NCBI RefSeq assembly: GCF_000266885.1
Contig: NC_018020.1
Span: 4,092,001 to 4,156,000 of the forward strand
Reading direction: 5' to 3'
DNA length: 64,000 nt
Origin: Turneriella parva DSM 21527
Lineage (GTDB): Bacteria > Spirochaetota > Leptospiria > Turneriellales > Turneriellaceae
Under the pieces are notes generated by a model. That model was not told the DNA's origin, made no database searches, and saw only the letters and a program-made list of their open reading frames with translations. Of the stretch, positions 4,390-17,640 are shown in pieces; position 1 is the first letter of the stretch; every line of letters begins with the position of its first letter. The translations under genes were made by a program, and so were the position numbers.

Positions 4390-6222
4390 CTATTTCGCAA
4401 CATTCTTCTGCGGATAAAGGCCCGTGAATTTGTGCAGCTCTGCCAGGGTCTTGGGCGCTTTGGTGTCGCCGGCCTTACCCATCACCGCATAAACGCGTTG
4501 GGCTTCGGCCTTGCCCTTCACCTTAATTTTGTGCAGCTGAATGCAGGTAAATTTCTTCTTGAGAAGATCGTACGTGTTCTGCGTGATCAGAATATCAGTG
4601 CCGAAGGCTTTATTGAGCCCTTCCATACGCGAGGCGAGGTTAACCGTATCACCGATCACCGTATATTCAAGGCGGTCGAGGCTGCCGATCTGCCCGGCAA
4701 GCACCTCACCGGTGTTGAGGCCCATGCCGATACGAATGACGGGCTTTGCGCGGCTGCCACGGCCCTGGTTAAACTTATGCAATGCCTGGCGCATTTCGAG
4801 CGCGGCGAGAACCGCATTTTCGGCGTCGTTGGGTTTCGTCACGGGCGCACCCCAGATAGCCATGATCGCATCGCCGATGAATTTATCGACAACCCCGCCG
4901 TGGCGGTGAACGATTTCAACCATGAGCGTCATGTACTCATTCAAGAAACCCACCACTTCGAGCGGTGTCATCTTCTCAGAAATTGACGTGAAAGAGCGAA
5001 TATCAGAAAAGAAAACCGTGGCAATCTTGCTCTCGCCGCCGAGCGCGAGGTCACCTTTCATGACCATCTTCGCGACCTCTTCGTTGACGAACTTGCCGAA
5101 TGCACCCTTGAGGTTTTCGCGCTCGCGCAGACCGTCTGACATTTCATTGAATGCCTGCGTCAGCTCGCCCACTTCGTCGCGCGAAGTTTTCTCCATATGT
5201 ACGTCGTAGTTGCCGCCGCGAATACGCTGCGTCGCGCCGACGAGCGCCTTCAAGGGGTCTGAGATCGTGCGCGAAAAGAAGTAAATCGACAAAATCGCGA
5301 TCATGAGAATCAGCAGCGCAATCAGAATAATCGTGATACGCGCCCAACGCACAGCCTCGAACGCAATATCTTCGTTCACGGTCGTGATGACCGCCGCACC
5401 GCCGAATGCCAGCTTACGGTAGCTGCCATACTCCGTGATTTCGTCTATTGAATAGCGCTGCACGCCGGTCGCGACGTTCTGGGCAAATTTTTTGAAGGCA
5501 ACATCGACTGCCGGGTGGTTCGCCATCTCTTGCGCCGCCTTGTATTTGCGGTTATCAGAGTGTGCGACAAGTTTCTTGCCAGAGTCGACCATCATGGCGG
5601 CGTAAAGCGATGACGAGGTACCTTTAGACTTCAATGCGCCGAAAAGAGCGGTCAGCGAATCGCCGTTCATGATCGCAGCGATCGCGCGGTCGCTGCCCTT
5701 CTCGTTGAATGGTACCGCGTAGAGCCACACGCTCTGCCGTGAAAACGGAAGCGATCTGATGATCGCTTGCCCCTGGCGCACAGCCTTCGCGTCGGCATCG
5801 GTGAACCTGAGCAGCGATTTCATCTGTTCGGGCGTCACGTTCAGCCGCGCAAGTTTGTCTTCACGGTAATATGACTTACCCGCCCCACCGGTCAGCGATT
5901 CAAAATCGGCGACGAGCAAGAAGTCACTCGAATCTTTGAAATACGCATTCATGACGGCTGAGCCCTCGCGCGACAGGGTGCTGAGAAGTCTCAGCTGGTC
6001 ACCCTGGCTGCGCAGCTCCGCTTCGATTTTGTCAGAAAGCATCTTCGCGTTATTGCCGTTGTTGAGCTTAATCAGCTCAGACATATTCGTCTGAAATAGG
6101 TTCAGAGAAATGCCGGTAAAGAGCAGAATACTTAGCAAGATGATCAGCGAAATAATCGCGATGAGCTTCGCCCTGATCGTGGTGAATAGCTGCGCGTAGG
6201 CGTTTCGTAGTCGGTTCAGCAT
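4390..6222 (-). CDS. Class III adenylate cyclase with extracytoplasmic sensor and HAMP
   Basis: A 610-residue membrane cyclase. TM1 spans about 20-42, an extracytoplasmic sensor region about 45-292, TM2 about 295-317, HAMP about 317-370, and the catalytic domain about 395-575. Metal-binding Asp407 (FFSDIR) and Asp451 (GDAIM) are present, as are transition-state Asn528 and Arg532 (TVNLASR). The base-selecting pair is Lys447 and Thr521, the pattern of class IIIb adenylate rather than guanylate cyclases. All catalytic positions are intact, so it should make cAMP in response to a periplasmic signal. A GGGAG Shine-Dalgarno precedes ATG 6222. It is 19 nt after nuoF and 17 nt before the FecR gene. 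The ligand of the sensor cannot be told. Confidence 0.93.
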   Translation of the reverse strand: MLNRLRNAYAQLFTTIRAKLIAIISLIILLSILLFTGISLNLFQTNMSELIKLNNGNNAKMLSDKIEAELRSQGDQLRLLSTLSREGSAVMNAYFKDSSDFLLVADFESLTGGAGKSYYREDKLARLNVTPEQMKSLLRFTDADAKAVRQGQAIIRSLPFSRQSVWLYAVPFNEKGSDRAIAAIMNGDSLTALFGALKSKGTSSSLYAAMMVDSGKKLVAHSDNRKYKAAQEMANHPAVDVAFKKFAQNVATGVQRYSIDEITEYGSYRKLAFGGAAVITTVNEDIAFEAVRWARITIILIALLILMIAILSIYFFSRTISDPLKALVGATQRIRGGNYDVHMEKTSRDEVGELTQAFNEMSDGLRERENLKGAFGKFVNEEVAKMVMKGDLALGGESKIATVFFSDIRSFTSISEKMTPLEVVGFLNEYMTLMVEIVHRHGGVVDKFIGDAIMAIWGAPVTKPNDAENAVLAALEMRQALHKFNQGRGSRAKPVIRIGMGLNTGEVLAGQIGSLDRLEYTVIGDTVNLASRMEGLNKAFGTDILITQNTYDLLKKKFTCIQLHKIKVKGKAEAQRVYAVMGKAGDTKAPKTLAELHKFTGLYPQKNVAK

Positions 6223-11861: not shown

Positions 11862-11927
11862 AAAGTAATGTAAGGCCGCTCCCGGGTTTCGAGGTTGATT
11901 TGCGAAAAACGACCACGGAGCCCCCGG

Positions 11928-12893
11928 ATGCGACCCTACGTTCAACTATCAAATGATGAAAGACTGCGTATAGAAGAAAGCCTTGCTGAGGGCCTCAAGG
12001 CCAGCCAAATCGCCAGAAATCTTAAGCGACACCCGAGCACTATTTTTCGAGAGATTCGGCGTAATTCAATGCCACGACATTACAGCGCGCGGTGCGCCAG
12101 AGACGAGGCGCGAAAGCGCCAGACTAATACCAACGCCGCGAAGGTTACACCAGAGCTTTGGTCAGAGATCGGAGCATCGCTCAAGTCGACGCTGTCACCA
12201 GAACAGATCGCAGGCCGCATGCGCCTAGAACGTTTCGACGGTGTCTGCATGCAGACGATTTACAATCATGTGCGCAAGAAATCCGGCACATCGAATTTTT
12301 ATCGCCTGTGCCTGCGCCGCAAAGGCAAACCATACAAGCGCAAAGTGAGGATTGAGGCTGAAAACAAAGGGTTTTTTCGCATTCACGACCTGCCAGCCGA
12401 AGCTTTGACGCGACGCAAACCCGGCTACTGGGAGGGCGATTTGGTCGAGGGTAAAATGGGCACCGGGCAGATTGCAACTTTCGTCGAAAGGCATTCGCGT
12501 TACTTGCTCGCGGCGAAACTGGAGCGCAAATTGGTGACACAGTTTAACGCTGCAGCGCGCGACCTATTCGCCGACATCGATAACGAACGGCTGCGGGGTA
12601 TCATTTACGATCGGGGCACCGAGATGAGTGGCTACCGCGACCTGCAGCAAGTGCTGAACTGCGGCATCTACTTTTGTGACCCCGGCTCGCCATGGCAGAG
12701 AGGTACGAACGAAAACACGAACGGCCTGCTGCGCGAGTCTTTTCCCAAAGGCACAGATTTTCGGCGCATCGACCAGGAACAGGTTGACGCAGCGCTTAAA
12801 TTACTAAATAACCGACCACGCAAGCGGCTGAATTACCGAACCCCGGCCGAGGTCTACTTTCGCAGCCCTATCGCACTTCGTTTTGGAATGTAA
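11928..12893 (+). CDS. IS30-family transposase
   Basis: A 321-residue DDE transposase. An N-terminal helix-turn-helix (about 5-45, LSNDERLRIEESL...SQIARNLKRHPSTIFREI) is typical of IS30. The catalytic triad is Asp171 (WEGDLVEG), Asp228 (IYDRGTEM) and Glu262 (GTNENTNG), with the 33-residue spacing expected for the second Asp and Glu. ATG 11928 has a GGAG Shine-Dalgarno 7 nt upstream; the longer frame from 11895 has none. The right terminal repeat encodes the last residues (about AL/RFG), and the final ATG codon and TAA stop use bases at or beyond the inferred element border. Nothing is truncated. Confidence 0.94.
   Translation: MRPYVQLSNDERLRIEESLAEGLKASQIARNLKRHPSTIFREIRRNSMPRHYSARCARDEARKRQTNTNAAKVTPELWSEIGASLKSTLSPEQIAGRMRLERFDGVCMQTIYNHVRKKSGTSNFYRLCLRRKGKPYKRKVRIEAENKGFFRIHDLPAEALTRRKPGYWEGDLVEGKMGTGQIATFVERHSRYLLAAKLERKLVTQFNAAARDLFADIDNERLRGIIYDRGTEMSGYRDLQQVLNCGIYFCDPGSPWQRGTNENTNGLLRESFPKGTDFRRIDQEQVDAALKLLNNRPRKRLNYRTPAEVYFRSPIALRFGM
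12864..12889 (-). repeat. IS30 right inverted repeat
   Basis: It is the reverse complement of the left repeat with two mismatches. It lies wholly within the 3' end of the transposase gene; the stop codon TAA (12891-12893) lies just outside it. Confidence 0.88.
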
Positions 12894-15229: not shown

Positions 15230-15988
15230 ATGGTTAAAAACATACTCCTATTCGGCCTGGCAGTTTTCGCCGTCTACGGCGACGAAGCCTATGACATAGC
15301 AGCGAAGGCTGAAAAGACGCAGCGCAACTTTGGCGACGAAACCGTCGAATCGACGATGAGCCTCATCGCCGCGAACGGCTCGGTTGTGACGCGCAAAACC
15401 AAGAACTTTACGCTCGAACGCGCGGGCAGCCGTGATTACCAGTTGTTTCAGTTTCTCGAGCCGGCCGATGTGCGCGGCACCTCACTGTTGACGCACCAAG
15501 ATCCAAAGGGCGACGACAGCCAATGGCTGTACCTGCCCGAACTGCGCCGTGTCAAAAGAATATCCTCATCGGGTAAAACGGGCTCATTCATGGGCAGCGA
15601 ATTCACGTACGAAGACGTCGGCGGCAACACGCTCGACCGTTTCAAATATGTAAAACTTGCCGACGAAACCTACAAAGGTAAGCCGTGCTACGTGCTTGAG
15701 AAGACACCCACATATGCGAACAGCGGTTACACCAAAATCAAAATGTGGATTTCGAAAGACAACAACCTTGTGCTGAGACAAGACTTCTTCGACCGCAAGA
15801 ATTCTCTTTTGAAAATCATGACATTCGACGGCCACAAACAGTATGGCACCACCTGGCGCAGCCAGAAGATCAGCGTCGAAAACCTGCAGACAAAAAAGAA
15901 AAGCGTGCTTGAGTTCACGAGCCGCAAAATGCGCTCGGGGCTTTCGAACGATCTTTTCACCGAACGCAACCTGCAGCGTTTGCAGTAG
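15230..15988 (+). CDS. LolA-like outer-membrane lipoprotein-sorting family protein
   Basis: A 252-residue periplasmic protein with a short signal peptide (MVKNILLFGLAVFAVYG). The rest is a beta-rich fold resembling the LolA-like proteins encoded with MMPL/RND exporters. Motifs include FLEPADVRGTSLL, DSQWLYLPELRRVKRI, GSFMGSEFTYED and the late MWISKDNNLVLRQDFFD. Such proteins are thought to carry a lipid or lipoprotein between inner and outer membrane. The genes for a DUF1302-like outer-membrane protein and an MMPL permease follow on the same strand, which supports an envelope lipid-transport role. It has no Shine-Dalgarno, and its stop codon abuts the stop of an antisense small gene. Confidence 0.85.
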   Translation: MVKNILLFGLAVFAVYGDEAYDIAAKAEKTQRNFGDETVESTMSLIAANGSVVTRKTKNFTLERAGSRDYQLFQFLEPADVRGTSLLTHQDPKGDDSQWLYLPELRRVKRISSSGKTGSFMGSEFTYEDVGGNTLDRFKYVKLADETYKGKPCYVLEKTPTYANSGYTKIKMWISKDNNLVLRQDFFDRKNSLLKIMTFDGHKQYGTTWRSQKISVENLQTKKKSVLEFTSRKMRSGLSNDLFTERNLQRLQ

Positions 15989-16153
15989 TTATTTCGGACG
16001 AATATAATAGGCTATGCTCAAAATGCTGCTAACCAAGCCGGCTACAAAAGCAAAAGACTCAATGACTTGCTTATATTCCGGGTATGTTTGTAGCAGAGCA
16101 GCTGCCGTACTGAGAAAGAAAACGCCCAGAACAAATAAGAATCGCTTGTTCAC
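15989..16153 (-). CDS. Small membrane protein (54 aa), antisense unit gene 2
   Basis: GTG 16153 to TAA 15989 encodes 54 residues: a basic N-terminus (VNKR), a membrane segment of about 5-22, a short polar part with Tyr/Glu/Lys, and a second hydrophobic segment (about 34-50), ending IRPK. A small two-pass inner-membrane protein is expected. The start overlaps the stop of the upstream 38-residue gene as GTGA, a classical coupling arrangement. Its stop touches the stop of the LolA-like gene with no base between them. I recognise no family. The clean hydrophobic layout and the upstream promoter support it; the small size limits confidence. Confidence 0.6.
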   Translation of the reverse strand: MNKRFLFVLGVFFLSTAAALLQTYPEYKQVIESFAFVAGLVSSILSIAYYIRPK

Positions 16154-16266
16154 TTTTTCAGGTCTTTTCGAACTTCGTCGCTGACCATGCCAGCAAGACC
16201 GACCCCAAAAAAATACAAGCCAGAGGCGATGAGCAGAGTAATACCGGTAATCATCATCCAACTCAT
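16150..16266 (-). CDS. Small membrane protein (38 aa), antisense unit gene 1
   Basis: ATG 16266 to TGA 16150 encodes 38 residues: one membrane segment (about 4-28, MMITGITLLIASGLYFFGVG) and a charged tail (SDEVRKDLKK). A strong promoter, TTGACA-17-TATTTT, lies directly upstream with 6 nt between the -10 box and ATG, so the message would be leaderless. Its ATG abuts back to back with the ATG of the plus-strand outer-membrane protein gene. No family is recognised. Possible roles are as a small regulator or accessory subunit of the adjacent MMPL exporter, but that is only inferred from position. Confidence 0.6.
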   Translation of the reverse strand: MSWMMITGITLLIASGLYFFGVGLAGMVSDEVRKDLKK

Positions 16267-17640
16267 ATGACGAAAATACACAGATACGAACAAAATGTCA
16301 AGAAAATAGCCTTCTTCTCGTTCTTGGGCATGCTGATAACCCCCGCTTATACCCAAGCCATCGAGTTCTCTGAAAACACGCGCCTCAACTACAAAGGCAA
16401 TATCGGTATGAACTACTGGTATTTTCCGAAAGCGGCGCCGAAACCAGAAATGCCCGAACACGTCGGCACATTCGACGGCCAGCTCGACCTCAACCTCAAG
16501 GCGGGCAAATACTGGGAGTTCAGGGCGAACCCGCGCGGCGTCGTCGACATCAAAGACCAGAACCGCCGCCGCTTTTTGCCGCAAGATATCTATGCAGATT
16601 TCGTCACGAGCCGGTTCGAATTGCGCGCCGGTTATCAGGTATTTTCATGGAAGACCGTCGAATCGGTTGCGCACTCCGATATTTTAAACCAGACAGACCC
16701 ATCGCTCGATTTTTTTGACGCACCCAAAGTGGGTGAACCCGCGCTGCGCACGCGCTTCATCATTGGTGATGAAAATCCGCATACTTTCGAAGTCTATTAT
16801 CTGCCATACTTCACGCCGGCAAAATTACCGATCGCCGGCAACCGCTTCGATTTCTCGGGAGCGCTGCCGCAAACTACGGTCGGCGCGCAGACGATTACCC
16901 CGAATGTGATCTACGACCCCGACGCGAACCGCTACGAGACGCCTTACAACCGCTGGCGGCCGCAGGGCGCCGTGCGCTACCAGAAGCAACTCTTCGGCAA
17001 GGTCGATACGTCGCTCTATTATTTCAACGGCTATAAGCGTTTTCCGCAGCTTTACCCGGTGCAGGCAACTGCGCTGCCCGTTGCACCGGGTGTGGCGGTA
17101 CCGACCCAGTATGCGCAGGCCTATAACCCGATTCACCAGGGCGGTCTCACCTGGCAGGGCACACTCGACGCACTCTTGATCAAAGGCGATGTCGCATACA
17201 TTCAATACGTTCAGCCAACGAAGGCGCAGAACACGGTCGACACCGTGCGGCCCTACGCGCAGTACACGGTCGGCTTTGAATATACTTTCAACAGCCTCTT
17301 CGTCGACAGTCAAGATCTCGGCCTTATCGTCGAGGCGCTCGGCGACAGCGACACGGGGCGCAATCCCATGGAACTCGATATTTTCAGGCCGTTTCAGAAC
17401 CATGTGTTCGCAGGCCTCAGATACACGTTCAACAATACCGGCGATCGCTCGCTGCTCGTCGGTACCTTTACCGATTACAAAAAGGGCGACATGCTCGGGC
17501 GCATCGAATATGAAGAGCGCTTTTTCGAGCGCGTCAAGGTCAAGGCGCAGTTTCTGGGCTTTGCCACCTCGACCGGTAGCCAGCTGAAGCCGTTCGAGCA
17601 CACAACGCGCGGCAGCCTGCTGGTATCTTACTATTTTTGA
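16267..17640 (+). CDS. DUF1302-like outer-membrane beta-barrel protein
   Basis: A 457-residue protein with a signal peptide (basic n-region, core IAFFSFLGMLI, probable cut after TPAYTQA). Many alternating hydrophobic/aromatic strands follow, and the chain ends SLLVSYYF, the C-terminal Phe typical of BAM-inserted outer-membrane proteins. Such DUF1302-type barrels are often encoded beside LolA-like proteins and MMPL permeases, as here. It may therefore be the outer-membrane end of a lipid-export path. ATG 16267 directly abuts the divergent ATG at 16266, and no Shine-Dalgarno is visible. The family name is from resemblance, not a search. Confidence 0.82.
   Translation: MTKIHRYEQNVKKIAFFSFLGMLITPAYTQAIEFSENTRLNYKGNIGMNYWYFPKAAPKPEMPEHVGTFDGQLDLNLKAGKYWEFRANPRGVVDIKDQNRRRFLPQDIYADFVTSRFELRAGYQVFSWKTVESVAHSDILNQTDPSLDFFDAPKVGEPALRTRFIIGDENPHTFEVYYLPYFTPAKLPIAGNRFDFSGALPQTTVGAQTITPNVIYDPDANRYETPYNRWRPQGAVRYQKQLFGKVDTSLYYFNGYKRFPQLYPVQATALPVAPGVAVPTQYAQAYNPIHQGGLTWQGTLDALLIKGDVAYIQYVQPTKAQNTVDTVRPYAQYTVGFEYTFNSLFVDSQDLGLIVEALGDSDTGRNPMELDIFRPFQNHVFAGLRYTFNNTGDRSLLVGTFTDYKKGDMLGRIEYEERFFERVKVKAQFLGFATSTGSQLKPFEHTTRGSLLVSYYF
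16273..16301 (-). promoter_or_regulatory. Consensus-like promoter for the antisense small genes
   Basis: On the minus strand, TTGACA (16296-16301, perfect -35) is followed by 17 nt and TATTTT (16273-16278, 4 of 6). The -10 box ends 6 nt before ATG 16266. It lies inside the first codons of the outer-membrane protein gene on the other strand. Confidence 0.6.

Follow-up and report, generated by a model that had tools for sequence, protein, structure and literature searches.

Two small overlapping genes of Turneriella parva DSM 21527, hereafter called ORF1 and ORF2 and together the module, form a real, uncatalogued and dispersed two-gene membrane unit, which is not part of the exporter operon beside which it lies in the DNA studied (C1:4092001-4156000, a stretch of 64,000 nucleotides, the window). 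The module may quite possibly be a new, self-contained toxin-antitoxin-like pair, with ORF2 as the candidate membrane toxin, its toxicity presumed, and ORF1 as the candidate antidote.

The gene pair between the lolA-like and barrel genes

The pair was first described in a sequence-only reading of the window, and the geometry given there, i.e. the coordinates, the 38 and 54 codons, the GTGA formed by the ORF2 start and the ORF1 stop, the 0-nt abutments and the promoter, was exact throughout (Table 1). The TAG of the lolA-like gene ends at 15988, at the base adjoining the ORF2 stop, and the ATG of the barrel gene begins at 16267, directly adjoining the ATG of ORF1, with 0 nt between in both cases. 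The neighbours had been labelled as LolA-like, DUF1302-like and MMPL; LolA_like and MMPL were matched, whereas the barrel gene had no Pfam family at 1e-3.

Table 1 Features of the module and its surroundings in the window
Feature	Position	Strand	Description
ORF1	16150..16266	-	ATG 16266-16264, TGA 16152-16150; 38 aa; one predicted membrane helix, N-out/C-in, with charged C-terminal tail; candidate antidote
ORF2	15989..16153	-	GTG 16153-16151, TAA 15991-15989; 54 aa; predicted two-helix hairpin protein; candidate membrane toxin
Module promoter	16273..16301	-	TTGACA-17-TATTTT; 6 nt between the -10 and the ORF1 ATG; lies opposite the first barrel-gene codons, on the other strand
Inserted segment (approximate)	15989..16301	-	Missing from the orthologous lolA-like/barrel junction in three congeners
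Barrel-gene 5' end (signal peptide)	16267..16360	+	Context, outside the module; without detected DNA similarity to congeners

Of 20,000 mononucleotide shuffles made from the gap sequence, 98 contained a coupled pair of ORFs comparable to ORF1 and ORF2. It is the homology to further copies in the same genome that places the pair beyond chance, and a chance ORF pair was rejected on the basis of these paralogues and the dN/dS values. The earlier view that the unit is real is thereby borne out, with paralogues, orthologues, purifying selection and a common promoter behind it.

The barrel gene is present in 4 of the 13 genomes of the family (T. parva, G001, G002 and G003). The distance from the lolA-like stop codon to the barrel ATG is 278 nt in T. 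parva and 24, 26 and 48 nt in the three congeners, which have no module there. Since the congeners retain the lolA-like/barrel junction without the module, the module at the window locus is, as judged from the aligned genomes, an insertion, and the exact fit of the unit in the gap is explained by a compact module having been inserted. DNA similarity of the barrel gene to the congeners resumes only near window position 16361, so that the T. parva barrel gene has its first codons on the strand opposite the module promoter. This suggests that the 5' end of the barrel gene was supplied by the inserted module, an origin which is suggestive only, because the signal peptides differ among the congeners too. 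No Shine-Dalgarno sequence was found ahead of the T. parva barrel gene.

A second comparison was available at the valS locus (named, like sucC below, from reading the sequence), where T. parva has the module and no convincing upstream profile match was found in 6 congeners (with about 315 nt covered in G004). G002 was the only congener seen with the same upstream gene; identity is 85 % in either flank, and G002 has about 40 nt where T. parva has about 430. At the sucC site, which was named from the sequence of the neighbouring gene, the module is kept in both T. parva and G003. Inspection of the two empty-site comparisons, made without a dedicated test, revealed neither a target duplication nor a flanking repeat, and no transposase or flanking repeat accounts for the movement of the module. 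A transposase gene (HTH_38, rve), which we take to be of the IS30 type, lies at 11895-12893 (+) in the window, with approximately 2.3 kb between it and the lolA-like gene. This transposase element also adjoins the module copy at 4281k (L016 6160-7158 and 8046-9045), where one further broken copy is present.

The sequence-only reading had proposed either that the two proteins serve the MMPL exporter as accessory subunits or that the unit is an antisense regulator of the lolA-like, barrel and MMPL genes. Position and orientation agree with either proposal. Against the first, all three congeners with the lolA-like/barrel junction have it without the module, two of them (G001 and G002) with MMPL downstream; the match in G003 stops inside the barrel gene at a contig end. 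The genes next to the module also differ from copy to copy and are unrelated. Against the second, homologues are codirectional with, convergent to or divergent from such unrelated neighbours, and both protein sequences are conserved. Both roles were rejected on account of the empty sites and the unrelated neighbours, and we regard them as extremely improbable.

Copies, distribution and promoters

Six further copies of ORF2 were found in the T. parva genome (E 5.6e-6 to 1.3e-4), several of them with a relative of ORF1 directly upstream, and with the alignment searches the totals reached 7 ORF2 and 11 ORF1 copies. Two more ORF1 matches (E 0.64-0.67, within long frames) were left out of this count. 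The ORF2 copies of T. parva are divergent, and other genomes have up to 10-11. Within the class ORF2 was found in 11 of 48 genomes, i.e. in 7 of 7 of genus g1 (Turneriella), 4 of 4 of genus g12 and none of the 37 others. ORF1 was found in 10 of the 48, in the same two genera, the exception being G001, which carries an ORF2 remnant only. In the phylum, 20 of 392 genomes and 10 of 167 genera had matches with a second alignment that included distant members. An earlier alignment, searched at the looser E of 0.01, had given 33 of 392; some of these were short matches within long frames, probably due to chance. An ORF1 homologue sits directly upstream of nearly every ORF2, the two mostly overlapping or separated by a short gap, and among the distant pairs of the phylum a small ORF1-like frame was seen by eye directly upstream of ORF2 at 8 of 8 loci, of which the profile caught only some. 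Toxin-antitoxin systems are typically two small genes, usually overlapping and co-transcribed, with patchy, multicopy distribution and gain or loss at individual sites, and the module has each of these features, co-transcription being deduced from the single promoter.

Ten small genes near five of the copies were scanned, and PIN, FitA-like RHH, DUF433/DUF5615, BrnT/BrnA and HigB/HTH matches were obtained, with 1 of the 10 matching nothing; the genes had been picked for their toxin-antitoxin appearance, so the result is no measure of enrichment. As judged by eye, the distant pair at L130 and L131 (G181, G110) is flanked by the same genes in two genomes that belong to a single genus, and a HigB/HigA-like pair is close by.

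All 11 ORF1 and 7 ORF2 copies of T. parva lie on the minus strand, from about 3.41 Mb through 0 to 1.42 Mb (C1 positions 113832, 284839, 352284, 361147, 1382285, 1419861, 3409850-3410764, 4107992 and 4281254). This arc approximates that of negative sampled GC skew, a likeness which was noticed post hoc over about nine independent places and may be due to chance. The sampled skew (20 stretches of 20 kb) flips near 1.3 and 3.5 Mb and not at 0, and a dnaA-like gene, named from reading its translation, is found at the contig start (C1:47-1459, L085). At C1 ~3409700-3411010 (L019), one intact pair and two lone ORF1 copies are clustered, and a repeated palindrome of the AGCTATGGGCTTAAGCCCATAGCT type is found on the flanks of this cluster.

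A promoter consensus scan alone was weak, with 3 promoter-like sites in 2 kb compared with 1.4 ± 1.2 in shuffled sequence. Twelve of the 20 Turneriella copies have a -35/-10 pair in which exactly 6 nt separate the end of the -10 from the ORF1 start; the 20 copies share ancestry and hence cannot be counted as independent. When control ORF starts were judged by this rule, with a spacing of 5-9 nt accepted, 5 of 368 had such a pair, a count lowered by the misplacement of some of the control starts, which were the first ATG or GTG of long frames. With the -10 six bases ahead of the start codon, the mRNA from the module promoter in Turneriella would be leaderless. Several g12 copies have a Shine-Dalgarno-like sequence upstream instead.

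The window also contains a plus-strand promoter-like sequence (TTTGCA-18-TATAAT, 15979-16008) which reads antisense into the 3' end of ORF2, as would be expected of a type I toxin-antitoxin system with ORF2 (or ORF1) as a toxin under the control of an antisense RNA. The site was not found in the 11 other module copies scanned (present in 1 of 12), no Rfam match was obtained in the window at the gathering score, and ORF1 is itself a conserved protein. A type I system is very improbable, and was rejected as the main reading because the site is not common to the 11 other copies.

Protein features, selection and relation to known systems

Hydropathy gave 1 membrane segment for ORF1 in 26 of 26 homologues and 2 for ORF2 in 26 of 27. 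AlphaFold2 models built on three-row alignments consisted of one helix (3-37, mean pLDDT 90.5) for ORF1 and two helices (3-23 and 25-51, mean pLDDT 82.0) for ORF2, in agreement with the hydropathy and with the earlier statement that both products have clean membrane segments. At the sucC locus, dN/dS between T. parva and G003 was 0.06 for ORF1 and 0.10 for ORF2, i.e. both ORFs are there under strong purifying selection. Most other module comparisons are more diverged, dS is saturated and therefore no ratio was obtained, and nonsynonymous codons sometimes exceed synonymous ones, e.g. 14 to 10 for the window ORF1 against G006:C17. The distances of ORF1 and ORF2 are correlated (Mantel r 0.60, p 0.0002, n = 32 pairs), which would also be expected from linkage alone.

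Neither ORF1 nor ORF2 was matched by a Pfam or NCBIfam model above the cut-off (four proteins tested), and Pfam scans of all members gave scattered weak matches, no single family being matched by more than 4 of the 27 members. PADLOC, searched with ORF2 only, gave no pattern; its matches were single, the best being to a two-helix SLATT-type model (8e-4, one member). No match to ORF1 or ORF2 was found among PDB sequences, and no description of the pair was found in the open-access literature searched. Two tiny membrane proteins could also constitute a holin and antiholin, or another remnant of integrated phages or mobile elements, and single weak PHROG holin matches (ORF2 only, E about 0.09) point in that direction. 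No viral or phage relative was found, however: tblastn against plasmids and phages with one ORF2 homologue, and a search of viral contigs with the ORF1 subset A5 and the window ORF2, gave no copy, all of these queries being short and divergent. Copies are mostly away from any prophage, no phage genes were noticed by eye beside them, and an origin of this kind is improbable.

Among named systems, type II operons (HigBA, BrnTA and VapBC-like) are likewise dispersed, patchy and multicopy pairs of small overlapping genes, some of which lie near module copies; their partners are soluble, and none of their domains matches ORF1 or ORF2. SpoIISA and SpoIISB consist of a membrane toxin and a small protein antidote, which makes them similar to the module by description only; SpoIISB is soluble, and SpoIISA is larger and has a cytoplasmic domain. 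GhoT, with two membrane spans, is controlled by GhoS, a soluble RNase which acts on ghoT mRNA, whereas ORF1, the partner in the module, is a membrane protein as well, and its gene lies upstream of ORF2 and overlaps it. The likeness of the module to GhoT/GhoS (type V) lies in the two genes and in a small membrane protein of similar size, GhoT having 57 aa and the type I toxin BsrG 38 aa in passages of PMC8309996. Passages of the same source describe the hok homologues of E. coli as multicopy chromosomal loci, many of them non-functional, and with an upstream frame, mok (PMC8309996). The type I toxins (Hok, BsrG, Ldr, Fst, TisB) are, to that extent, similar to the module as tiny membrane proteins of multicopy loci with broken copies and an upstream frame, but their antidote is an RNA, whereas the module comprises two conserved proteins and no conserved antisense promoter. 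At best, the small membrane toxins GhoT and type I would be its closest kinds in function, and the module appears to be a member of no named family.

Toxin-antidote reading and the loss of ORF2

If the module is a toxin-antidote pair, its one short promoter would give the leaderless transcript, on which translation would begin with ORF1, and ORF2 would follow through coupled re-initiation where the stop and start codons overlap. ORF1, predicted to be a single-span protein with a charged cytoplasmic tail, would be made in step with ORF2, predicted to be a two-span hairpin with both ends cytoplasmic. ORF2 would assemble in the inner membrane and depolarise or permeabilise it, unless kept inactive by pairing with ORF1 through its helix; when the supply of ORF1 was lost, ORF2 would be freed. 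Under such a mechanism, a genome that had gained the module could hardly lose it again, and ORF2 rather than ORF1 would be expected to decay.

Decay was surveyed at 55 loci of 11 genomes, with 48 ORF2 matches (40 full length and 8 broken); the counts pool related copies, so the events are not independent. A profile-detected ORF1 was present ≤250 nt upstream of 35 of the 40 full-length ORF2 copies (4 of the 35 below 20 bits), an ORF1-like frame was recognised by eye only for 4 (L082 through copy L050; L132, L136 and L137), and 1 was cut off by a contig end. None of the 39 assessable full-length ORF2 copies was thus without ORF1. Conversely, ORF2 was missing or reduced to a remnant of ≤19 residues after 11 ORF1 copies, one of which had lost its own ATG and another of which is some 130 nt away from a contig end. 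A further three ORF1 copies precede an ORF2 broken by stop codons (L079, L187 and L188), giving 14 without an intact ORF2. In toxin-antitoxin systems, too, the antidote may survive alone and the toxin may not.

The asymmetry is expected of a toxin and its antidote, and also of a silenced downstream gene; it speaks for the toxin reading without proving it. Operon polarity would be the plainer cause: with ORF2 dependent on translation of ORF1, ORF2 would fall silent whenever ORF1 was lost, and the two would then decay unseen. The sucC copy of T. parva also weighs against the toxin-antidote reading, since its ORF2, one of the 40 counted as full length, keeps the full frame with the start codon lost (TTG to TCG) and an Arg gained in helix 2. 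This ORF2, the G003 counterpart of which retains the TTG start and a Ser in helix 2 (compared at L020 near 5786-5941 and L024 1492-1656), is a pseudogene in the making or has an unusual start.

It is also possible, if somewhat doubtful, that ORF1 and ORF2 form a small, non-toxic inner-membrane protein of two subunits, which would serve in physiology or in stress, e.g. by modulating a larger membrane enzyme, and would undergo duplication and loss as accessory genes ordinarily do. Purifying selection on both frames, the module's own promoter, and vertical retention at sucC (T. parva and G003) and in two genomes of genus g73 would agree with such a role. The number of divergent ORF2 copies per genome, the empty sites between congeners, the absence from 37 of the 48 class genomes and the survivors with ORF1 only argue against it. 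Dispersal, empty sites, patchiness, the decay asymmetry, purifying selection, the distance correlation, the nearby type II genes and the likeness in size and topology to known toxins were counted for the toxin-antidote reading, which they leave plausible though tentative.

Extended to the phylum, the toxin-antidote reading would describe a spirochaete-wide class of addiction modules, in which toxin and antidote are both integral membrane microproteins, expressed in Turneriella from a leaderless two-gene mRNA, and which move between intergenic sites and leave orphan antidotes behind. We consider such a class conceivable but rather unlikely. If ORF1 does neutralise ORF2 within the membrane, the toxin-antitoxin arrangement would be one without a match in the model libraries searched. 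The module further suggests how a compact insertion may split an operon and provide a new 5' end for the neighbouring gene. Annotation frequently overlooks proteins shorter than 60 aa, and a family of gene pairs can therefore go unseen even where a genome has as many as 10 or more copies of it.
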